Virus record (IMG/VR): IMGVR_UViG_3300047678_000813
Span: 1-40,506 of that record
Length of the DNA: 40,506 nucleotides
DNA from: a virus
Direction: 5' to 3' (one strand)
Shown here: positions 26,839 through 40,506 of the stretch, piece after piece
Position numbering within the stretch: position 1 is the first letter of the stretch
Layout of the letters: every line of letters begins with the position of its first letter
Translations under genes and position numbers: made by a program
The notes under the pieces: generated by a model
The model's input: only the letters and a program-made list of their open reading frames with translations
What the model was told of the DNA's origin: nothing
The model's database searches: none

Positions 26839-27063
26839 TCAACCCGCATGGGCGGCCTCCGCGGCGCCAAACACCGTCGCATGCAGCGCGGCCAGCTTCA
26901 GCGCGTCGTCGGCACCTGCCGGCGTCGGCCCGCGCTCCCAGCGAGACAACCGCGGCTGCGGGATGCCCGTGCGCCGCGCAATCTCAGTCTGCGAAAGCCC
27001 GCTCCTGCGCAGCCTGCGCAAAAGCTCCGTGGTGGTCGTGGTGGGGGTCAGCTGGGTGCACAT
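26839..27063 (-). CDS. Cro-like helix-turn-helix regulator
   Basis: The 74-residue protein has a classical XRE helix-turn-helix, LSQTEIARRTGIPQPRLSRW, at about residues 23-42. It is divergent from the CI-like repressor with about 70 bp of shared control sequence, the arrangement of cro and cI in lambdoid phages. It would shut off the repressor on induction. Confidence 0.8.
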   Translation of the reverse strand: MCTQLTPTTTTTELLRRLRRSGLSQTEIARRTGIPQPRLSRWERGPTPAGADDALKLAALHATVFGAAEAAHAG

Positions 27064-27072
27064 CGCCGCAGT

Positions 27073-27134
27073 CTATGCGCATTCGCATTAGCTCGGCAAG
27101 CCCATTTGCATTATTCACTGGTGCATAGTATACA
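27073..27134. promoter_or_regulatory. divergent promoter/operator region of the immunity switch
   Basis: On the plus strand TTGCAT (27106-27111), 17 nt, TATACA (27129-27134) make a promoter whose -10 box ends only 1 nt before the repressor ATG. Operator-like palindromes are ATGCGCAT (27075-27082) with a neighbouring CGCATTA, and TGCATA at 27122-27127. There is no ribosome binding site before the repressor ATG. These elements overlap the probable promoter of the Cro-like gene, so repressor binding could control both directions. Confidence 0.6.
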
Positions 27135-27135
27135 G

Positions 27136-27603
27136 ATGGATCCCAAAGACCTCGTGCGCCGCCTCATCGACGCCCAAGGCGAAACCCCCAACTCCGTGGT
27201 GCACCTGACCCGGCCGCCCATGCAGCAGTCCACGCTGCACCGCTACCTCAAAAGCAACACCGGCGAAACTCGCCGCAAATCACTGGCGCCGCTGGCCGCG
27301 TACTTCGGTGTGCCCATCGAAGCCTTCTACGACCCCCGGGTGGCCGACCAGGTGGCCAAGGAAAAAGGCCTGGGCGACACCGCCACTGTCGTCGCCGCGC
27401 GCGACAACACCCACCGCGGCTACGAAGCGCAGACACCGGCCGCCATCCTGGCCCGCTTGGCTGACATCCTGCGCCACGTGCCCAGCGCATCGCGGGCACC
27501 CATCGGCGCGCTGCTCGACCGCTGGGCCCAAGCCGGCGGCGCCGCGTCCTATCAAAGCGCGCTGGAAACCCTGCTCAAGAACGAGGCACCCAAACCAGAC
27601 TGA
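27136..27603 (+). CDS. CI-like phage repressor
   Basis: The 155-residue protein is the probable prophage repressor. The N-terminus has a helix-turn-helix-like region (MDPKDLVRRLIDAQGETPNS, then QQSTLHRYLKSNTGETRRKS) followed by SLAPLAAYFGVPIEAFYDPR, the usual ending of XRE-type phage repressors. The C-terminal ~60 residues (AAILARLADILRHVP) are a small helical oligomerisation domain rather than a LexA-like peptidase, so induction by RecA self-cleavage is not indicated. It lies divergent to the Cro-like gene and upstream of the channel gene. Confidence 0.8.
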   Translation: MDPKDLVRRLIDAQGETPNSVVHLTRPPMQQSTLHRYLKSNTGETRRKSLAPLAAYFGVPIEAFYDPRVADQVAKEKGLGDTATVVAARDNTHRGYEAQTPAAILARLADILRHVPSASRAPIGALLDRWAQAGGAASYQSALETLLKNEAPKPD

Positions 27604-27611
27604 GCCACGCC

Positions 27612-28436
27612 ATGAATATCCGGCACCTTCGCGCAAAACTATTCAACATTTTGCACAAGCCCTCGCCGGAAAACCCGGCCGCACGGTACGCAAACTACTT
27701 CCTGGCCTTCCTTATATTTGCCAACGCCCTGTTCGTGGCGCTGGAAACCGTGCCCGCCCTGGCCAGCCGGTTTGCCCCGGCATTCAAGGCCTTCGAGGCC
27801 GCCTCCACCGCCCTCTTTGCGCTGGAATACGCCGCCCGCCTATGGGTGTGCACAGAGCAGGGCCGATACTCCCGCCGACTGCTCGGCCGCCTGGCCTACG
27901 CCGCGCACCCCCTGCCGCTGCTGGACCTGATCGTCATCGCCACCTACTGGCTGCCCATTGACCTGCGCTTTCTGCGCGTCGCCCGCATGGTGCGGCTGCT
28001 GAAAGTATTGCGACTGGACCATTTTGAAGAATCCCTGCACAAAGTCGGCGCCGGCCTGCGCCGCCGCACCGGCCTGATATTCATTGCCGTCACCATGATG
28101 GTGCTGTGCATCTATGCCTCATCGGCCCTGATCTACCAGCTCGAACACACCGCCCAGCCCGCCGCGTTCAGCAGCATCCCCGGCACCTTCTGGTGGGCGC
28201 TGGTCACCCTCACCACCATCGGCTACGGCGACATGGTGCCCCTCACCCCGGCGGGCAAGCTGTTCGCCGGCTTCATTTGCATCTTCGGCATCGGCATCTT
28301 TGCCCTGCCCACGGCCATCGTCACCGCCGTCATCGTCGAAGCCGGCGTCAGCGACCCCGAGCCACCCCGACCACTGGCCTGCCGCCATTGCGGCAAGCCC
28401 TGGCACCCCGCTCAGCCCCCGACCCCAGAACCGTAG
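27612..28436 (+). CDS. voltage-gated potassium channel
   Basis: The 274-residue protein is a six-helix K+ channel of the inner membrane. Membrane segments lie at about 26-46, 60-80, 95-112, 115-130, 150-170 and 205-235. The fourth is a voltage sensor with regularly spaced arginines (LRFLRVARMVRLLKVLRL). The pore helix and filter read FWWALVTLTTIGYGDMVP near 190-205, with the GYG signature intact. The C-terminus carries CRHCGKPWH, a possible zinc site. It starts 8 nt after the repressor stop, so it is probably expressed in the lysogen. Such a gene is not needed for phage growth; host membrane physiology or superinfection exclusion are possible roles, neither shown here. Confidence 0.9.
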   Translation: MNIRHLRAKLFNILHKPSPENPAARYANYFLAFLIFANALFVALETVPALASRFAPAFKAFEAASTALFALEYAARLWVCTEQGRYSRRLLGRLAYAAHPLPLLDLIVIATYWLPIDLRFLRVARMVRLLKVLRLDHFEESLHKVGAGLRRRTGLIFIAVTMMVLCIYASSALIYQLEHTAQPAAFSSIPGTFWWALVTLTTIGYGDMVPLTPAGKLFAGFICIFGIGIFALPTAIVTAVIVEAGVSDPEPPRPLACRHCGKPWHPAQPPTPEP

Positions 28437-28508: not shown

Positions 28509-28537
28509 TTGACAACAGAATTGCATAACTGCATAGT
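28509..28537 (+). promoter_or_regulatory. promoter with operator-like TGCATA repeats
   Basis: TTGACA (28509-28514), 17 nt, CATAGT (28532-28537) form a good sigma70-type promoter for the plus-strand accessory genes. Two TGCATA copies (28522 and 28530) lie in and next to the -10 box; the same hexamer is in the immunity switch at 27122. This suggests the promoter is under repressor or Cro control. The 128 bp between the channel gene and 28565 hold nothing else I can identify. Confidence 0.6.
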
Positions 28538-28564: not shown

Positions 28565-29035
28565 ATGCCCACATCCCTCACTGCCCCCGACCTGCTGGCC
28601 TACGCCAAGCGTCGGCTGGCCAGCCTGGCCAAAGAGGCACAGGCCTGTGTTGACGCCGCGGCCGCCGCCCCAGGCGCCGCTGAAAACCTGCGCCGCGCCA
28701 CGCAGATTGACCTCACGCACCGACGCGGCGATGCGTTGTACGAACTAGTATCGCTGTGCGGCGAGCTTGGCGCGCACGACGTCAGCGATCAGCTCGCCCA
28801 GCACATCGAGGCCTTCGCCACCCGCTGCATCGACCTGGCCTACACCACGCGCATGGCCAGCATCCCGCGGGCGCACGCCACCCCGCCTGCCTGCGCCACC
28901 TGCAACGGCCAGGGCCGCTACCGGCCGCCTTACAGCCTGGGCGTCACCGCCTGCCCCGACTGCTTGACGCGCCCGATCTCCACTGCCAGCGCCACCACCT
29001 CGGCGCCGGTGAACGCGCCCGGCAGCAGCGCCTGA
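28565..29035 (+). CDS. phage protein with DnaJ-like zinc ribbon
   Basis: The 156-residue protein is helical for the first ~95 residues (SLTAPDLLAYAKRRLASLAK) and then has CATCNGQGRYRPPYS and ACPDC, two CxxC pairs forming a zinc ribbon like that in DnaJ. The last ~30 residues are low-complexity Ser/Thr/Ala and overlap the convergent minus-strand gene by 106 nt, so the gene may have been extended at its 3' end. First gene after the TTGACA promoter. Function unknown. Confidence 0.65.
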   Translation: MPTSLTAPDLLAYAKRRLASLAKEAQACVDAAAAAPGAAENLRRATQIDLTHRRGDALYELVSLCGELGAHDVSDQLAQHIEAFATRCIDLAYTTRMASIPRAHATPPACATCNGQGRYRPPYSLGVTACPDCLTRPISTASATTSAPVNAPGSSA

Positions 29036-30844: not shown

Positions 30845-31170
30845 GCGCGCCACCCCCGCGCCAGTACATCACCGAGCCCGGCGCGCTTGACGACATCCCT
30901 GTGGGCCTGGTGCTGCAACGCCACGCGCGGCCGGCGTCGCCCACCGCCGCCCCAGCCACCGGCACCGAGGCCCGCGTATGCCAGGACATCGGCCTGCGCC
31001 AGGCCCTGGGCCGCGCCAAGTACGGCACCACCGTCGAGGCCAACCCCCTCACCCACCGCCAGTGGCTGCAACACGCCTACGAAGAAGCGCTGGACCTGGC
31101 CATCTACCTCAAGCGCGCCATCGAGCAGATGGACCGCGACCAAGCCCCCAACCCACCGCCCGCACCATGA
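30841..31170 (+). CDS. MazG-like nucleotide pyrophosphohydrolase fragment/family protein
   Basis: The 109-residue protein has RQALGRAKYGTTVEANPLTH and WLQHAYEEALDLAIYLKRAI, the all-alpha NTP pyrophosphohydrolase signature in which the EE pair binds Mg2+. Phages use such enzymes to remove or rebalance (d)NTPs. The first ~50 residues are variable. It overlaps the parB-like gene by 4 nt (ATGA). Confidence 0.7.
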   Translation: MSAPPPRQYITEPGALDDIPVGLVLQRHARPASPTAAPATGTEARVCQDIGLRQALGRAKYGTTVEANPLTHRQWLQHAYEEALDLAIYLKRAIEQMDRDQAPNPPPAP

Positions 31171-31655
31171 CGCAAGACACCATCCTCGAAATCCCACTGG
31201 AAGACCTGCACGACAGCCCCTTCCAGCCCCGCGCCGACTACCGCGGCATCGAAGGCCTGGCCGAGTCCATCAAGGCCGAAGGCCGCATCCACCAGCCCCT
31301 GCTGGTGCGCCCGCGCGTGGGCCCCCTGTTCGCCGGCGACCCCGACGCCGCGGCCGGCTTTGAGATCGTCTTCGGCCACCGGCGCCGCCGCGGCGCCGAG
31401 CTGGCCGGCCTGTCCACCGCCCCGTGCACCGTGCGCGCCATGACCGACGCCCAGGTGCGCAGCGCCCAGATGGCCGAGAACATCGCGCGCGAGAACATGA
31501 GTGCGCTGGACGAAGGCGCCGGCTTCAAGGCCCAGATCGCCGCCGGCGCCGACGTCGCCCGCGAAGCCGAGGCCGTGGCGGTCAACTGCTACCGGAGCGT
31601 GCTAAAGGGGCAGGGGCACCTGCGGGTGATGAGCGCGCCGCTGGGTGGGGGTTGA
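31167..31655 (+). pseudogene. ParB-like N-terminal domain, probably truncated by the integron
   Basis: The 162-codon frame starts as a normal ParB/Spo0J N-terminal nuclease-like domain: LHDSPFQPRADYRGIEGLAE, then GHRRRRGAELAGL (the GxRRxRA motif) and SAQMAENIARENMSALDEGA. After about residue 138 (AREAEAVAV) the expected helix-turn-helix does not follow; instead a short unrelated tail ends at the first attC. ParB proteins of phages are usually about twice as long. The loss of homology coincides with the distal end of the cassette array, so I infer that the integron displaced the 3' part. A naturally short variant is possible. Confidence 0.65.
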
Positions 31656-31770
31656 ACGTGCCCATGAGCCGGACCCAACAGCACGCGACGAAGCATGACT
31701 GACTGCACTGCTACCGATACGCCACCGCTGGCCCATGCTGTTGGGGCTCGGCTCGATGGGCGGGTTATGG
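31651..31770 (-). other. attC of cassette 6 (distal)
   Basis: R' (GTTCAAC on the minus strand, 31651-31657) and R'' (GCCATAAC, 31764-31771) bound arms that pair through GCCCAT and CCAACAGCA. The loop is long. R'' contains the TAA stop of the helix-turn-helix gene, the usual cassette layout. Beyond it, 31585-31656 may be the start of a seventh, truncated cassette. Confidence 0.75.
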
Positions 31771-31944
31771 CGCTGTGTCCGAAGCGGGACGGCGCCCGCG
31801 CGGGAGCACTACACCGGCCCGCTGGCAGGCCCGGACAAGCGTGGACGGCGCCAGGCCGAGCAGCCCGGCGACAGTGCGCAGGGGCTGGCCCTGCGCGATC
31901 AGCTCAAGCGCCCTGGTGGTCAGGGCGGATTGTGTGCGGCTCAC
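31765..31944 (-). CDS. helix-turn-helix protein of cassette 6
   Basis: A 59-residue protein starting at GTG, overlapping the preceding stop by GTGA, reads VSRTQSALTTRALELIAQGQ and then a clear helix-turn-helix, LRTVAGLLGLAPSTLVRACQ, with a basic tail. The stop codon lies in the R'' box of the attC, as in classical cassettes. With the 92-residue gene it forms a two-gene unit that would be transcribed from the promoter at 32268-32296, where an inverted repeat offers a binding site. It is probably an autoregulator. It is too short for most gene finders. Confidence 0.75.
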   Translation of the reverse strand: MSRTQSALTTRALELIAQGQPLRTVAGLLGLAPSTLVRACQRAGVVLPRGRRPASDTAP

Positions 31945-32219
31945 GCGGCAGCATTGAACCAGCAGCCGTGGTCGTAGCCCAGCGCCGTGAGTTCGGCCAC
32001 TGGGTTCGCGGCGATCTTGCGGGCGAGGGATTCGCCTTCCTCAGCACTGTCGAAATCAGCGAGCTGCGCGTAGCCCATCCAGCCCTCGAACGGGCCGGTG
32101 ATGCACACGGTCCCGTTGTTGGCTTCAACGTAAACGTCGGCATTGTCCGGGGCGCCATCGGTTCCGAGCATTTCTTCGGTAGTGGTGTCGGTGCCGATCA
32201 GGTAGGAGGTGGTGCTCAT
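31941..32219 (-). CDS. cassette 6 protein, unknown function
   Basis: The 92-residue acidic protein starts MSTTSYLIGTDTTTEEMLGT and contains PFEGWMGYAQLADFDSAEEG. It has a GGAGAG ribosome binding site and is the only large cassette gene running in the direction expected from the attC sites. It is translationally coupled to the helix-turn-helix gene behind it. A toxin-antitoxin or other self-regulated pair is imaginable but nothing in the sequence identifies a toxin. Confidence 0.7.
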   Translation of the reverse strand: MSTTSYLIGTDTTTEEMLGTDGAPDNADVYVEANNGTVCITGPFEGWMGYAQLADFDSAEEGESLARKIAANPVAELTALGYDHGCWFNAAA

Positions 32220-32267
32220 GGTTTCTCTCCGGTTCAGGCCCCGCGACATGCAGAACCCATGAGCAGT

Positions 32268-32296
32268 AATGTACGCACAATCGCCGCATTGTGCAA
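32268..32296 (-). promoter_or_regulatory. cassette-borne promoter with operator palindrome
   Basis: On the minus strand TTGCAC, 17 nt, TACATT forms a promoter about 50 nt upstream of the 92-residue gene. Within it GCACAAT and ATTGTGC (32288-32294 and 32275-32281 on the plus strand) are perfect 7 bp arms separated by 6 bp, one helical repeat centre to centre. The palindrome spans the -35 to -10 spacer, the position for a repressor. The helix-turn-helix protein of the same cassette is the natural candidate to bind it. 32297-32377 shows nothing else. Confidence 0.65.
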
Positions 32297-32377
32297 ACAT
32301 TGCGTGCAAGGCCATGCGCCGCAGTCAACTATTACGCAAACATTCCGACGCGCTTCTGCTGTAGCCCAGCGGGAGCG

Positions 32378-32481
32378 CCATAACGTTCGAGCTTAACCGG
32401 ACGCAACGGCCGGCACGAACTGACAAGGAATGCTTGACTGTTGACCGGCCGTTGGGGCTCGGTTCGAGCGAGGGGTTGTGC
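32378..32481 (-). other. attC of cassette 5
   Basis: Read on the minus strand: R'' GCACAAC, L'' with TCGCTCGAACC, a long perfect stem CAACGGCCGG/CCGGCCGTTG, L' GGTTAAGC and R' CGTTATGGC. L'' has one base more than L', the extrahelical base that sets attC polarity. This half agrees with the published attC consensus (GCTKANCTCVRRCGTTAG). It is identical to the attC of cassette 3. Confidence 0.8.
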
Positions 32482-32517
32482 TTCACCCACCCGAAGCGCG
32501 CAACTGTAGGAACGCAA

Positions 32518-32766
32518 ATGGAACTGCGAAGTGGACGACTGATGGCGCTGGCCGCTGCGGCTGGCATGGCTGGCGAGTGGGCTGCGGTGCCCGACGAACT
32601 GGAGAAGATGGCGCAGGCCAAGATGCGCTTTGCCGCGATGGTCGGCACCGAGGCCAAGGTGAACATGCGCGGACAGCACCCGCTGGCGAAGTGGGGCCGC
32701 GACAAGCGCAAGGAAAAGGCGAAGGCCAAGATCGCGGCGGCTTCGCGCCGGAGGAACCGCAAGTGA
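32518..32766 (+). CDS. cassette 5 protein A, unknown function
   Basis: The 82-residue protein (MELRSGRLMALAAAAGMAGE) ends in a highly basic tail (DKRKEKAKAKIAAASRRRN) and may bind nucleic acid. It is preceded by AGGAA and followed by a second gene overlapping by GTGA. It runs opposite to the attC polarity. The 5' leader from the attC R'' box is about 40 nt, and the gene pair fills the cassette. A duplicate is at 33593-33841. Confidence 0.65.
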   Translation: MELRSGRLMALAAAAGMAGEWAAVPDELEKMAQAKMRFAAMVGTEAKVNMRGQHPLAKWGRDKRKEKAKAKIAAASRRRNRK

Positions 32767-33029
32767 GCGCGCAGCAGTTCCTGACCATCGCGGGCCGCTG
32801 GCGCGAACACGTCAAGGCGAGCGGCATTGACAAGGCGCTGCCGAAGCGCGAGCAGGGCCTGGCGATGATGATGTTCTACGCCGGCTTCAGTGCTGCGCTG
32901 GACGCGGGCCTTGAGGTGGCCGAGTTCCCGGAAGACGAGGCCATGCAGCTTCTGAGCGCGATGCACACCGAGGTGCAGCAAGTCGAGGCGCTGGCGGCCC
33001 GAGTGCTTTCTGGTGGCGCGCCGCAGTGA
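32763..33029 (+). CDS. cassette 5 protein B, unknown function
   Basis: The 88-residue protein starts at GTG behind an excellent GGAGGA site. It is helical (SAQQFLTIAGRWREHVKASG; EQGLAMMMFYAGFSAALDAG) and acidic toward the end. Its stop codon TGA lies directly beside GCACAAC, the start of the cassette on the minus strand. It looks like an ordinary phage or plasmid accessory protein; the family is unknown to me. Duplicate at 33838-34104. Confidence 0.65.
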   Translation: MSAQQFLTIAGRWREHVKASGIDKALPKREQGLAMMMFYAGFSAALDAGLEVAEFPEDEAMQLLSAMHTEVQQVEALAARVLSGGAPQ

Positions 33030-33030
33030 A

Positions 33031-33120
33031 GCACAACGTCGAAGCTAAGCGGGCGCCCCGTGCTGCTGGTGACGACACCCACAACTGATGTAGGCGCTCC
33101 GCTTGAGCGCAGGGTTCGGC
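33031..33120 (-). other. attC of cassette 4
   Basis: On the minus strand R'' GCCGAAC, L'' TGCGCTCAAGCGGAGCGCC, L' GGCGCCCGCTTAGCTTCGAC and R' GTTGTGC. GGCGC and GCGCC pairs extend the stem. The R'' is complementary to the first bases of the same cassette at 33453-33459. Confidence 0.78.
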
Positions 33121-33175
33121 CTCACTGGTGGCCGACGCTACCAACCGCCCGCAAGGGCACAACTGGAGAACGACG

Positions 33176-33451
33176 ATGACCAAGGTGAATGTGCAACTGG
33201 GCGACAAGGCCCGCGACACCGTGAGCGGCTTTGCTGGCGTGTGCGTGGCCCGCACCGAATGGCTGAACGGCTGCTGGCGCATGACGCTGCAACCGCAGGC
33301 GCTGGACAAGGACGGCAAGCCCTGCGAGGCGCAGACGTTCGATGATTTCCAACTGGAGGTGACCGAGCCGAAGCTACAGCCGGTTGGCAGCAAGGAAACC
33401 GGCGGCCCGCGCGATGCGCCTGCCAGGTCGCGCGACCCGGCGCGGGTGTGA
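33176..33451 (+). CDS. cassette 4 protein, phage-type
   Basis: The 91-residue protein (MTKVNVQLGDKARDTVSGFA, then ARTEWLNGCWRMTLQPQALD) has the look of a family of small phage proteins with the GDxxRDxVxGFxG and ARxEWLNGC pattern. GGAGA precedes the ATG by 7 nt. The last ~20 residues are low complexity. The stop TGA lies next to the attC R' core at 33453, so the gene fills the cassette but runs opposite to attC polarity. Confidence 0.7.
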   Translation: MTKVNVQLGDKARDTVSGFAGVCVARTEWLNGCWRMTLQPQALDKDGKPCEAQTFDDFQLEVTEPKLQPVGSKETGGPRDAPARSRDPARV

Positions 33452-33452
33452 G

Positions 33453-33556
33453 GCCGAACGTTCGAGCTTAACCGGACGCAACGGCCGGCACGAACTGACA
33501 AGGAATGCTTGACTGTTGACCGGCCGTTGGGGCTCGGTTCGAGCGAGGGGTTGTGC
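33453..33556 (-). other. attC of cassette 3
   Basis: Same sequence as the attC at 32378-32481 except for the outermost bases that belong to the neighbouring cassette (GGCCGAAC here instead of GCCATAAC), which is exactly what insertion of one cassette at two places predicts. Confidence 0.8.
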
Positions 33557-33592
33557 TTCACCCACCCGAAGCGCGCAACTGTAGGAACGCAA

Positions 33593-33841
33593 ATGGAACT
33601 GCGAAGTGGACGACTGATGGCGCTGGCCGCTGCGGCTGGCATGGCTGGCGAGTGGGCTGCGGTGCCCGACGAACTGGAGAAGATGGCGCAGGCCAAGATG
33701 CGCTTTGCCGCGATGGTCGGCACCGAGGCCAAGGTGAACATGCGCGGACAGCACCCGCTGGCGAAGTGGGGCCGCGACAAGCGCAAGGAAAAGGCGAAGG
33801 CCAAGATCGCGGCGGCTTCGCGCCGGAGGAACCGCAAGTGA
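33593..33841 (+). CDS. cassette 3 protein A (duplicate)
   Basis: Identical to the 82-residue basic protein at 32518-32766, with the same AGGAA site and the same overlap with the following gene. Confidence 0.65.
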   Translation: MELRSGRLMALAAAAGMAGEWAAVPDELEKMAQAKMRFAAMVGTEAKVNMRGQHPLAKWGRDKRKEKAKAKIAAASRRRNRK

Positions 33842-34104
33842 GCGCGCAGCAGTTCCTGACCATCGCGGGCCGCTGGCGCGAACACGTCAAGGCGAGCGGC
33901 ATTGACAAGGCGCTGCCGAAGCGCGAGCAGGGCCTGGCGATGATGATGTTCTACGCCGGCTTCAGTGCTGCGCTGGACGCGGGCCTTGAGGTGGCCGAGT
34001 TCCCGGAAGACGAGGCCATGCAGCTTCTGAGCGCGATGCACACCGAGGTGCAGCAAGTCGAGGCGCTGGCGGCCCGAGTGCTTTCTGGTGGCGCGCCGCA
34101 GTGA
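33838..34104 (+). CDS. cassette 3 protein B (duplicate)
   Basis: Identical to the 88-residue protein at 32763-33029. It too ends beside a GCACAAC core. Both copies are intact, so neither has begun to decay. Confidence 0.65.
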   Translation: MSAQQFLTIAGRWREHVKASGIDKALPKREQGLAMMMFYAGFSAALDAGLEVAEFPEDEAMQLLSAMHTEVQQVEALAARVLSGGAPQ

Positions 34105-34105
34105 A

Positions 34106-34225
34106 GCACAACGTTCGAGCTAAGGGGGCGCCAACAGCGCGAGGAAATGATGACTGACCACACTGCTACCGATGCGCCACCAGTGCGACTCGCTGTTGGT
34201 GCTCCCTTTCAGCGAGGGGTTAGCC
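34106..34225 (-). other. attC of cassette 2
   Basis: Minus strand: R'' GGCTAAC, L'' TCGCTGAAAGGGAGCACC, stem CAACAGCG/CGCTGTTG, L' GGCGCCCCCTTAGCTCGAAC, R' GTTGTGC. Its loop shares the sequence ATGACTGACNNCACTGCTACCGA (N = differing bases) with the loop of the cassette 6 attC, so the two long sites are related. On the plus strand the loop carries GAGGAAATGATG, a ribosome binding site and start codon. Confidence 0.78.
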
Positions 34226-34254
34226 GGCTGTTTGAAAACCGAGGAGAACTTTGC

Positions 34255-34533
34255 ATGAGTATGTTTGGCAGCATGAGAGGCACGGAGTACCGCGTGTGGT
34301 GCCCCGACCGTGGCGCAACCAAAGAGGACGGGCGCCGAATCTTGGCCTACGACGCAGAGAGCGCGGCGACCAAGTGGGCAGAGTGGGACGACGCCGCCAG
34401 CGCGGACTACACCATTGTTGGCGGCACACCGGCTGACGTGGTGGTGGCTGAAGAACGTGACGGCGCACCGGAACACCGATTCACGGTGTTTGGTGAGTCG
34501 CATCCCACGTACCGCGCACGGGCGGCAGCATGA
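34255..34533 (+). CDS. cassette 2 protein, phage-type
   Basis: The 92-residue protein (MSMFGSMRGTEYRVWCPDRG, then AYDAESAATKWAEWDDAASA and YTIVGGTPADVVV) matches a widespread type of small phage protein with a VWCPDRG motif. GAGGAGA precedes the ATG by 8 nt. An in-frame start at 34147, inside the attC loop, also has a ribosome binding site and would add 36 residues encoded by the attC. It overlaps the next gene by ATGA and runs opposite to attC polarity. Confidence 0.7.
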   Translation: MSMFGSMRGTEYRVWCPDRGATKEDGRRILAYDAESAATKWAEWDDAASADYTIVGGTPADVVVAEERDGAPEHRFTVFGESHPTYRARAAA

Positions 34534-35060
34534 GCATGGAGTGCCCGCCACTCCCGCCCACGCGCATGCGCCACCGTGGCGACAAGATCAACGCGCAGGG
34601 CCGCGTGTCCGCGCTGTGCTTTCCGAAGCCGCGCGCCATTGACATGAAGCGCGCGACCTGGGTGATGAGCGACGACGCGGTTACGTGCCCGAAATGCCGC
34701 GCGCTTATCTCGGCCCGCTGCGAGCCGGCTAACGTTGGAGCTGAGCCGGTGACCCCGGCCACGGAGGAAACGATGACCACAGAAGCAACGCCGGGGGCAC
34801 TCGGCTCGAACGACCGGTTGGGCGCTGTGTCCGAAGGGCTCTATTTGGCGAGCGAGCAACGTCCGCGCGATGGTGGGCCACGGTTCAGGGTGTCTGACGG
34901 CGGACGGGCGATCAGCGACGAGGATTTCATCTTTGACGCGCTGATCCGTGTGGGCGGCGACTTCGGCGGCGACGCGCTGCGGACGCGCTATGCACAGTGG
35001 ATGTGCGATGCACTGAACGAGGCCGACAAGACGCTGCCACGAGTGCCGCGTGGCGCCTAA
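34530..35060 (+). CDS. ORF spanning two cassettes across an attC
   Basis: The frame stays open for 176 codons through the attC at 34727-34823. The first ~65 residues are a phage-type zinc protein (VSALCFPKPRAIDMKRATWV, then AVTCPKCRALI). The attC contributes about 30 residues. The last ~75 (GLYLASEQRPRDGGPRFRVS, then FDALIRVGGDFGGDALRTRY) are an independent small protein of cassette 1, which could also start at ATG 34772, 6 nt after GGAGGAA inside the attC. Whether one fused protein or two separate proteins are made is unclear. The stop TAA lies in the attI core. Confidence 0.6.
   Translation: MSMECPPLPPTRMRHRGDKINAQGRVSALCFPKPRAIDMKRATWVMSDDAVTCPKCRALISARCEPANVGAEPVTPATEETMTTEATPGALGSNDRLGAVSEGLYLASEQRPRDGGPRFRVSDGGRAISDEDFIFDALIRVGGDFGGDALRTRYAQWMCDALNEADKTLPRVPRGA
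34727..34823 (-). other. attC of cassette 1
   Basis: Minus strand: R'' GCCCAAC, L'' CGTTCGAGCCGAGTGCCCCCGG, L' CCGGCTCAGCTCCAAC, R' GTTAGCC. R' GTTAGCC and the flanking GGC pair with the R'' of cassette 2 rather than with this R'', as expected for neighbouring cassettes. Confidence 0.75.
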
Positions 35061-35115
35061 CTTCAATTCGCCAGCACGCTAATTCAATCTCCGTTGCATA
35101 ACACGGCACGACGCG
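35055..35115 (-). other. probable attI site and intI promoter region
   Basis: On the minus strand the core GTTAGGC (35055-35061) starts cassette 1 and fits GTTRRRY. Between it and the integrase ATG lie 54 bp of AT-richer sequence with no attC-like arms on the core side, which is how attI differs from attC. Two TTCAAT repeats (35062, 35083) may be integrase binding or promoter elements. The exact attI limits and promoters cannot be set by eye. Confidence 0.65.
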
Positions 35116-35178
35116 ATGCAAGTCATTGATTTACAAGCACCGGCCGGAATTACGCCTGACGCGCCGCCCGTGTTATGC
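35096..35178. repeat. 11 bp inverted repeat with attC-like cores over the intI start
   Basis: GCATAACACGG (35096-35106) and CCGTGTTATGC (35168-35178) are perfect arms; imperfect pairing goes on inward (CACGACGCG against CGCGCCGC). The outer ends GCATAAC and GTTATGC look like R''/R' cores about 83 bp apart, an attC-sized distance. One arm lies within the predicted integrase reading frame. It may be a degenerate attC, part of attI, or a control element. Confidence 0.55.
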
Positions 35179-36126
35179 GACACCAAGCCGCCGAAGCGCA
35201 TCGAAGACCTAATGCGCGAGGCCTGCTCAGTGCGCCACTACAGCCGGCGCACCTTCCAGGCCTACTGGCATTGGTCGAAGCGCTTCATCCTGTGGTCTGG
35301 CAAGCGGCACCCGAAGGACATGGGGCAGGCCGAGGTCTCGGCCTTTCTCACCTGGCTGGCCACCGAAGGCAAGGTATCCGCCAGCACACAGCGCCAAGCG
35401 CTTCACGGCATTCGCTGGGTGGACGGCATCGTGCGCGCCAAGCAGCCGCAACGCCTGCCCACGGTCCTGACGGTGCAGGAAGTGGCGGCCGTGCTGGCAA
35501 CCACCCGCGGCACGCCTGGCCTGTTCCTGCGGCTGCTCTACGGCACCGGCCTGCGCCTGATGGAAGGCCTGCGGCTGCGCGTGAAGGACATCGACTTTGC
35601 GCAGCGCCTTGTGCTCGTGCGCGGCGGCAAGGGCGACAAAGACCGCGTGACGGTGCTCCCGGCCGGACTGGTGCAACCGCTGCAGACGCTGCTCGAAGAG
35701 CGTCGCAGGTGGCACCAGGTGGACCTGTGCACGGGCCGCGCCAGCGTGGACCTACCCAACGCCCTGGCCAGGAAATATCCCACGGCCGCCAGCGAATGGG
35801 CCTGGCAGTATGTCTTCGCCACGGCCGACTATCACGTCAACCCCGACACCGGCGAGCGGCGGCGACACCACATCTTCGACTGGACCATCCAGCGCGCCAT
35901 GAAAGAAGCTGTGCACGCCGCCGGCGTCTGCAAGCCCGCAACGCCGCACACCCTGCGTCACTGCTTCGCCACTCACCTGCTGCAAAGCGGCACCGACATC
36001 CGCAAGATCCAGGAACTGCTGGGCCATTCAAGCGTTGAGACGACGATGATTTACACCCACGTGGCGGGCATGGGCAGCGCAGGAGTGAGAAGCCCGCTTG
36101 ACGCCATGATGGGGCCCCGCGCATGA
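35116..36126 (+). CDS. intI: integron integrase IntI with N-terminal deletion
   Basis: The 336-residue tyrosine recombinase carries out attC x attI recombination. It has the IntI-specific insert (LARKYPTAASEWAWQYVF near 230-250) that separates IntI from other tyrosine recombinases. Catalytic residues are present: Arg in LLYGTGLRLMEGLRL (near 150), Lys in GGKGDKDR, HTLRHCF (HxxR), LLGHSSVETTMIYTH with His and the Tyr nucleophile. Compared with IntI1, the segment between TQRQAL and QRLPTVLT has 15 residues (HGIRWVDGIVRAKQP) where IntI1 has 27, so about 12 residues, the last core-binding helix, are missing. The stop overlaps the excisionase-like start by ATGA. A start further in is possible because the first 20 residues overlap an inverted repeat. 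Confidence 0.88.
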   Translation: MQVIDLQAPAGITPDAPPVLCDTKPPKRIEDLMREACSVRHYSRRTFQAYWHWSKRFILWSGKRHPKDMGQAEVSAFLTWLATEGKVSASTQRQALHGIRWVDGIVRAKQPQRLPTVLTVQEVAAVLATTRGTPGLFLRLLYGTGLRLMEGLRLRVKDIDFAQRLVLVRGGKGDKDRVTVLPAGLVQPLQTLLEERRRWHQVDLCTGRASVDLPNALARKYPTAASEWAWQYVFATADYHVNPDTGERRRHHIFDWTIQRAMKEAVHAAGVCKPATPHTLRHCFATHLLQSGTDIRKIQELLGHSSVETTMIYTHVAGMGSAGVRSPLDAMMGPRA

Positions 36127-36422: not shown

Positions 36423-37583
36423 CTACCCCAGTCGCGCCGCCAGATCCTCGCCGCGCAGGCTGGCGTACCTCAGCGCCATGGCCAGGCTCGACCAGCCCAT
36501 GATCCGCGCCACCTCCACGTCGGCGAACACCCAGCGCCCCGCGGCGTCCCGCAGCTCAAACCACCTGCAGGTGGCCTCGTGCCGCAGATCATGCTCCGTC
36601 AGGCCGGCCGCGCCGGCATAGTCGAACAGCGTGCGGAACCGCGCTGAAAGCCGCCGCGTGGCCGGGTCCAGCCCTTCCGGCGTGCCATCCCAATAGGGCC
36701 ACAGCAGCCCCACCCGCCCACGGCACCAGTCGGCCAGCGGCTGGCGCAGGTGCACCGGCACCGGCACCACCCGTGGCTTAGCCTGGCCGCGCACGCCCTT
36801 GCTGCCTTCCACCCGCAACACGCCCTTGCCCGGATCCACCTGGTCGACCCGCAGCCGGTACGCCTCGCGCAGTCGCAGGCCCGTGCTCACCAGCACATCG
36901 AACAACAGCGTCATGGGCGCGTCGCCCGCTTCGGCCCATGGGCGCTCACGGTCGGGGCGCTTTTCGCCGGCCAGGGCCCGACGGATGGCCGCTTCCTCGG
37001 CCGGCAGCACCCGGCGGTCGCGGTGCTGGTCCACCTTCGCAGGCAAGCCCTGCTGGGCCATGCGTTCGCGCTCGGCCGCGGTGTACTGGCTGTACCCCTT
37101 GGGCAGCAGCCGCAATGGGTTCACCGGCGCCACCGCATCCGCGGCGGCGTGCGTGGCCAGGTGCCAGTCCAGCACCCGCGCCAGGCCGCCCACGCGCTTG
37201 CGGATGGTGCCCGGCGCCAGGTGCTGCTCGAGCTTCATGCGGCGTACCCACGCATTCGCCCAGCGGAACGACACCTCGCTCAGCTTCACGGGTGCCAGCT
37301 CGTCCAGCATGCCGGCCAGCAGCCTGTCATCCGACGGTGTCAGGTGCGGCGCGCCGGCCAGGTACGCACGCACCACCGCCATCAGCGGCGGCGCCACGGC
37401 CGACGGTGCAGGCGTCTGCAGCTCCGTCGGCAGCACACCGGCGTCCAGCATCGCATCCAGCTGCTGCCCGTAAGCCTGCGCCTCGGGCTCGGCGCCGAAG
37501 GTGGCATAGAACGGCCGCGGCAGCAGCTTGTGCTTGACCCGCAGTTCCCAGCGCCGCCCACGCGGCCGGACGTGGTACGCCAT
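36423..37583 (-). CDS. prophage tyrosine integrase
   Basis: The 386-residue protein is the phage integrase. The N-terminal part has a short arm-binding region (MAYHVRPRGRRWELRVKHKL), then a core-binding helical domain to about residue 190. The catalytic domain has VSTGLRLREAYRLRVDQVD (first Arg), GVRGQAKPRVVPVP (Lys region), LTEHDLRHEATCRW (HxLRH) and WSSLAMALRYASLRG (Tyr). It starts 166 bp from tRNA-Cys and reads away from it, the usual geometry for an integrase by an attachment site in a tRNA 3' end. Confidence 0.9.
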   Translation of the reverse strand: MAYHVRPRGRRWELRVKHKLLPRPFYATFGAEPEAQAYGQQLDAMLDAGVLPTELQTPAPSAVAPPLMAVVRAYLAGAPHLTPSDDRLLAGMLDELAPVKLSEVSFRWANAWVRRMKLEQHLAPGTIRKRVGGLARVLDWHLATHAAADAVAPVNPLRLLPKGYSQYTAAERERMAQQGLPAKVDQHRDRRVLPAEEAAIRRALAGEKRPDRERPWAEAGDAPMTLLFDVLVSTGLRLREAYRLRVDQVDPGKGVLRVEGSKGVRGQAKPRVVPVPVHLRQPLADWCRGRVGLLWPYWDGTPEGLDPATRRLSARFRTLFDYAGAAGLTEHDLRHEATCRWFELRDAAGRWVFADVEVARIMGWSSLAMALRYASLRGEDLAARLG

Positions 37584-37749: not shown

Positions 37750-37823
37750 TGGAGGCGCGATCCGGAGTCGAACCGGACTGGACGGATTTGCAATCCGTTG
37801 CATAACCGCTTTGCTATCGCGCC
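37750..37823 (-). tRNA. tRNA-Cys(GCA)
   Basis: GGCGCGA and TCGCGCC form the acceptor stem; the anticodon stem-loop reads GGATTGCAAATCC with anticodon GCA; the T loop GGTTCGACTCC is intact and CCA is encoded. The 3' end faces the prophage, so it is the probable attB, restored after integration. Confidence 0.93.

Positions 37824-38079: not shown

Positions 38080-40506
<2,427 letters not shown>

Follow-up and report, generated by a model that had tools for sequence, protein, structure and literature searches.

Why would a temperate phage carry a voltage-gated K+ (Kv) channel directly behind its repressor? The question is raised by IMG/VR virus record IMGVR_UViG_3300047678_000813, which was analysed over its whole stretch of 40,506 bases, here called the window. 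The immunity region and the channel gene comprise the following features:

26839..27063, minus strand: Cro-like XRE/HTH gene, the first of the leftward (lytic) side (Pfam HTH_3, E 6e-11)
27064..27135, no strand assigned: divergent intergenic region, presumed from position alone to hold the operator and the promoters for cro and the repressor
27136..27603, plus strand: CI-type HTH regulator of 155 aa, the presumed immunity repressor (homology to regulators of related prophages, hhalign)
27612..28436, plus strand: six-transmembrane voltage-gated K+ channel of 274 aa with TTIGYGD and a C-terminal CxxC (Pfam, residues, structure model)
27966..28013, plus strand: S4 segment of the channel, residues 119-134 (R119, R122, R125, R128, K131, R134)
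28212..28232, plus strand: K+ selectivity filter TTIGYGD, residues 201-207 (residue match)
28509..28537, plus strand: sigma-70-like promoter TTGACA-17-CATAGT (1 found versus 0.4 expected by chance)

An earlier note on this DNA had described the channel ORF as having an S1-S6 layout, an arginine-rich S4, the filter TTIGYGD and a C-terminal CxxC, and as starting 8 nt after the regulator stop. All of this could be confirmed: the ORF is intact at 27612-28436, and the regulator ends at 27603. The codon-position GC content (0.64/0.48/0.83) is coding-like, and Pfam assigns the product to Ion_trans (PF00520, E 8e-30) and Ion_trans_2 (PF07885, E 8e-16). By sequence, the protein resembles eukaryotic Kv channels, with Kv2.1 as the top match. 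Its AlphaFold model (mean pLDDT 89) contains six transmembrane helices and a pore loop, and the top Foldseek matches in the PDB are Kv channels (KCNQ, Kv4, Kv2.1 and Kv1, E down to 2e-10); the match in a viral structure library was weak and pore-only. S4 carries six basic residues, one at every third position, and F69, E72 and D105 make up the predicted charge-transfer site. The window protein is a Kv-type channel by all sequence and fold features that could be tested. Like all 36 channels scanned it matches PHROG 7872 (E 6e-36), and no PADLOC model matched it, the 36 channels yielding one weak PADLOC match (E 0.007).

The CxxC belongs to a C-terminal hairpin (28356-28433) that is common to the nearest chromosomal channels and to the haloarchaeal virus Humcor1, whose Kv channel (L056:3866-4696) has the same element as CPHCG. 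A CxxC near the C-terminus is present in 8 of the 30 regulator-linked viral channels introduced below. It is a possible metal-binding site or redox switch.

The regulator by itself matched no Pfam or PHROG family, and no peptidase domain was found in it. It is 26-36% identical to four regulators that occupy the corresponding position in related prophages; one of the four (L044) has a Peptidase_S24 domain and aligns with the window regulator at the N-terminus. In an hhalign profile comparison, it matched the regulators that precede other phage channels (95.9%, E 5e-9). On the strength of these homologues and of the profile match, the gene at 27136-27603 can with good support be regarded as the phage immunity repressor. 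It has the N-terminal Cro/CI HTH and the divergence from cro expected of the CI type, and it lacks the C-terminal S24 autoprotease domain found in many, although not all, CI-type repressors. The Cro-like protein shows 56-67% local identity to counterparts in five related prophages, and a consensus promoter scan matched nothing in the divergent region 27064..27135. The sigma-70-like promoter listed above sits after the channel and ahead of the following rightward ORF, which starts at 28565. With this predicted promoter directly after the channel, the transcription unit of the repressor may stop at the channel. The next ORF itself (28565-29035) had no Pfam, PHROG, PADLOC or NCBIfam match.

Homology shows that the window carries a prophage inserted at a tRNA-Cys gene, beside lon, in a Burkholderiales chromosome. 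The window spans the right end of the prophage and host DNA, with the left prophage end lying outside. Tail- and replication-side genes occupy the leftward strand, a VapE-like helicase/primase being the only one given an identity by family search. The right end holds a tRNA-Gly and the following features:

36423..37583, minus strand: tyrosine integrase of the prophage (PF00589 E 2.5e-9, phrog_1)
37750..37823, minus strand: tRNA-Cys with the presumed attachment site at its 3' end, where host-genome homology generally begins
38080..40506, minus strand: Lon protease of the host chromosome (NF008053, bit score 1271)

The best matches to lon (88-90% nucleotide identity) come from two genomes in the family sample of a Pelomonas assembly, which points to a host among the Burkholderiales. 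Matches that reach beyond lon start mostly at the 3' end of tRNA-Cys, and this break in homology makes it the probable attachment site.

An integron adjoins the prophage or lies within it (31560-36126). Its integrase is encoded at 35116-36126 on the plus strand (TIGR02249, E 9e-119), attC-like repeats lie near 32379, 33454, 34107 and 34728, and a folded attC-like element spans about 34107-34226. The region also contains a perfect 300-bp repeat with a spacing of 1075 bp, which resembles a duplicated cassette. An ORF with a ParB_N domain (30978-31655) apparently loses its similarity and ends near 31.6 kb, where the integron region starts and possibly interrupts it. A place for the channel gene among the cassettes of this integron was considered and dropped, the attC-like elements lying at 31.6-34.8 kb, outside the channel neighbourhood.

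Neither the channel nor the regulator, used as a single-protein query, brought up a relative among viral contigs, since the sequences are too far apart for exact peptide patterns to match. In a phage collection, the regulator and the 8-kb region had no match at the nucleotide or the protein level. Matches to Acinetobacter 'phage' sequences (H1 and H2) were set aside, as H1, the one inspected, adjoins acnB and ydhP and is apparently host sequence; a further match (H6) was set aside for its apparently bacterial neighbours.

An alignment of seven channel sequences, used to scan viral contigs, yielded 80 IMG/VR loci which, together with the window and two phage records, form 55 channel clusters at 80% identity. 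Of the 55 clusters, 17 have a same-strand HTH regulator no more than 100 nt upstream of the channel; the number rises to 28 at a limit of 1.5 kb and to 30 at 2 kb, and 25 of these combine the regulator with a same-strand integrase downstream. An opposite-strand HTH gene is located farther upstream in 24 of the 30 regulator-linked clusters. According to Pfam, HTH_3 is present in all 29 upstream regulators other than that of the window and Peptidase_S24 in nine of them. Two examples are Dulem virus 33, in which an HTH gene and the ion channel gene share 4 nt, a divergent HTH gene is present and an integrase comes after, and the Enterococcus phage record Efs 1-1-1, with the order regulator, metallopeptidase, small lipoprotein-like gene, channel and serine recombinase. 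About half of the viral channel clusters have no regulator linkage. Small lipoprotein- or membrane-protein-like genes were seen beside several phage channels (L058:4486-4884, L062:5360-6004 and L094:6808-7305); they might encode channel partners.

The linkage stands out against the controls, for which p-values are approximate because the cluster-level counts take related clusters as independent: none of 30 chromosomal channels has a same-strand HTH gene within 1.5 kb upstream (Fisher p 3e-7), an upstream HTH gene is found for 101 of 739 other genes in the same viral loci (14%) versus 27 of 54 channels (p 1.6e-9), and genes in loci picked by a VapE gene have one in 16 of 171 cases (9%, p 8e-10). 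The same-loci control is conservative, as those loci are centred near the immunity region.

The placement of a Kv channel behind a regulator recurs in unrelated phages. The earlier expectation that the pair would be met elsewhere therefore holds for the arrangement, a Kv channel behind a CI-type regulator and mostly before an integrase, which is found in many unrelated phages far above the controls. It fails for the exact pair of regulator family and channel subfamily, which is absent from five related prophages and whose nearest channels are chromosomal. The recurrence suggests that the channel is of use to the virus while it lies dormant, perhaps by shutting out other viruses.

The gene tree shows that Kv channels have been taken up repeatedly behind regulators. 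Regulator-linked channels are spread over several clades, and linkage changes its label 12 times, 7 of these changes being forced by starred branches, on a tree that is a quick, unrooted search with four long-branch rows, in which gain and loss are indistinguishable and the placement of the window channel is firm. All 30 linked channels keep basic residues at 5-6 of the 6 S4 positions, and all 30 retain F69, an acid at position 72, R76, D105 and GYGD; S4 is the unbiased part of this conservation, the S2 and filter motifs having served as search patterns. Pooled pN/pS was 0.22 in a cluster of 20 members, and pairwise pN was well under pS in the other clusters where it could be tested. In the testable clusters, which do not include the window channel, regulator-linked channels are under purifying selection.

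Position and precedent lead us to a tentative reading, the likeliest of those considered if short of probable, in which repressor and channel form a prophage immunity operon and the channel, expressed in the lysogen, would be a K+ shunt that is triggered by voltage and excludes superinfecting phages or aborts their infection. Given the shared strand and the 8-nt gap, the channel would be made along with the regulator in the lysogen. The resting bacterial membrane lies near or below the K+ equilibrium potential, at which the channel would be mostly silent. An infecting phage that opens and depolarises the membrane would cause the S4 sensor to open the pore, and K+ flow would then clamp the membrane near the K+ equilibrium potential. 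Loss of K+ and disturbed energetics would leave DNA entry incomplete or abort the infection. A single protein would act as both sensor and effector.

Opening on depolarisation could just as well enable a Kv channel to protect or restore the membrane potential, which makes a homeostatic role a serious rival. The channel would then be a factor of lysogenic conversion without defence that betters the K+ balance, turgor or potential stability of the lysogen, for example under depolarising toxins or salt, and the prophage would gain through the fitness of its host. An intact voltage sensor suits homeostasis as well as defence, and the nearest relatives of the window channel suggest an ancestral role that was presumably in host physiology. 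The closest homologues (57-59% identity, three genomes) are stand-alone Burkholderiales genes in chromosomal settings; they share the C-terminal CxxC and, unlike the window channel, have housekeeping-type neighbours and no upstream regulator. The next four homologues (39-51% identity) likewise lack a regulator. Conversion alone, however, leaves unexplained why phages of different lineages have the channel after the regulator and beside the integrase, as any lysogen-expressed site would serve, and we consider this explanation somewhat unlikely.

The same relatives bear on the origin of the window pair. The window channel and the three chromosomal channels group at 100% support in the tree, and none of the five prophages whose regulator or Cro genes are related to those of the window (L042-L046) carries a channel. 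Their slot behind the regulator holds various other small genes or nothing on that strand. Chromosomal nearest channels and channel-less related prophages identify the exact pair, as far as homology can tell, as one local capture. To the eye, several of the slot genes start like signal peptides or lipoproteins, and the slot is a candidate hotspot for variable cargo. Such a capture might have been imprecise and have brought in a mere chance passenger, a host gene that was left in place after the regulator and does nothing for the phage. The 57-59% identity to the chromosomal channels with which it groups would fit, as would the failure to find a second prophage with the pair and the unrelated genes in the slot of related prophages. 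The ORF is intact, lacks none of the gating and filter residues and has a coding-like GC3 pattern, which argues against a passenger, as does the repeated origin of the same placement in other phages, and this explanation is unlikely. Quite improbable is a role in the phage cycle, in which the channel would set membrane potential or K+ and so affect lysogeny maintenance, induction or the timing of lysis by holins (which are triggered by loss of membrane potential): the tight linkage that many phages show between channel, regulator and integrase would suit it, and reduced repressor synthesis at induction would take away the channel too, but no sequence tie connects channel and lysis genes, and lysogens need no lysis factors.

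The reading as a voltage-triggered shunt against superinfection has its own points against it, namely that no RexA-like partner adjoins the channel, that PADLOC offers no model for it, that the window pair is unique, that the window channel is close to chromosomal genes, that the slot after the regulator may take cargo of any kind and that about half of the viral channel clusters show no regulator linkage. Extended beyond the window, it would make Kv channels a recurrent component of immunity operons, recruited several times independently, and an exclusion class in which one protein serves as voltage sensor and K+ flux effector; this extension is possible, on the doubtful side. Rex exclusion by membrane depolarisation is known, with sensor and channel as separate proteins, and if the reading is true, the Kv channel that many unrelated temperate phages encode in their immunity region would be a simple one-protein version. 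It would also give a role to PHROG 7872, the family of the window channel, which is now listed as a phage family of unknown function and for which placement behind a repressor is unrecorded. To our knowledge, the roles of prokaryotic Kv channels are mostly unclear, and a natural function would thereby be offered. Among the open-access papers searched (preprints excluded), none was found that describes a Kv channel in the immunity region of a prophage.

Several known systems resemble the window locus in part. The chlorovirus channel Kcv is, like the window channel, a virus-encoded K+ channel. It is a small pore-only channel of a eukaryotic virus and is thought to reside in the virion membrane, whereas the window channel has a full voltage sensor and is encoded in a prophage immunity region. 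Depolarisation of the host by chloroviruses, which probably begins with a virus-encoded K+ channel, blocks a second virus (PMC7019647). In temperate dairy phages, ltp is a sie gene of the lysogeny module that is expressed in the prophage (PMC3952083). Ltp/Sie proteins share the location in the lysogeny module with the window channel, but they are surface lipoproteins that block DNA injection and not channels. The closest parallel in position is offered by RexAB-type systems, which encode a membrane component near the repressor and are proposed to abort infection through ion flux (PMC6426606, PMC12894663). For CarolAnn gp43/44, a proposed ion channel is cotranscribed with the repressor, with lambda cI-rexAB as the parallel (PMC6426606), and in Pseudomonas putida a CI-like repressor is followed by RexAB-type genes (PMC12894663). 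As in the window, a membrane ion-channel gene follows a CI-type repressor on the same strand in these systems, and both are proposed to act in lysogens via the membrane potential. In lambda, RexA senses and RexB is the channel, whereas the voltage sensor of the window protein lies inside the channel. No RexA-like DNA-binding partner is present between the window regulator and the channel or recognised in the next ORF, and the channel belongs to Ion_trans instead of the RexB family and matches no PADLOC model, the two being set apart by family search rather than by direct alignment to RexB. With no such partner and a different channel family, the window channel is by its sequence not a member of RexAB, and by analogy it may work like one.
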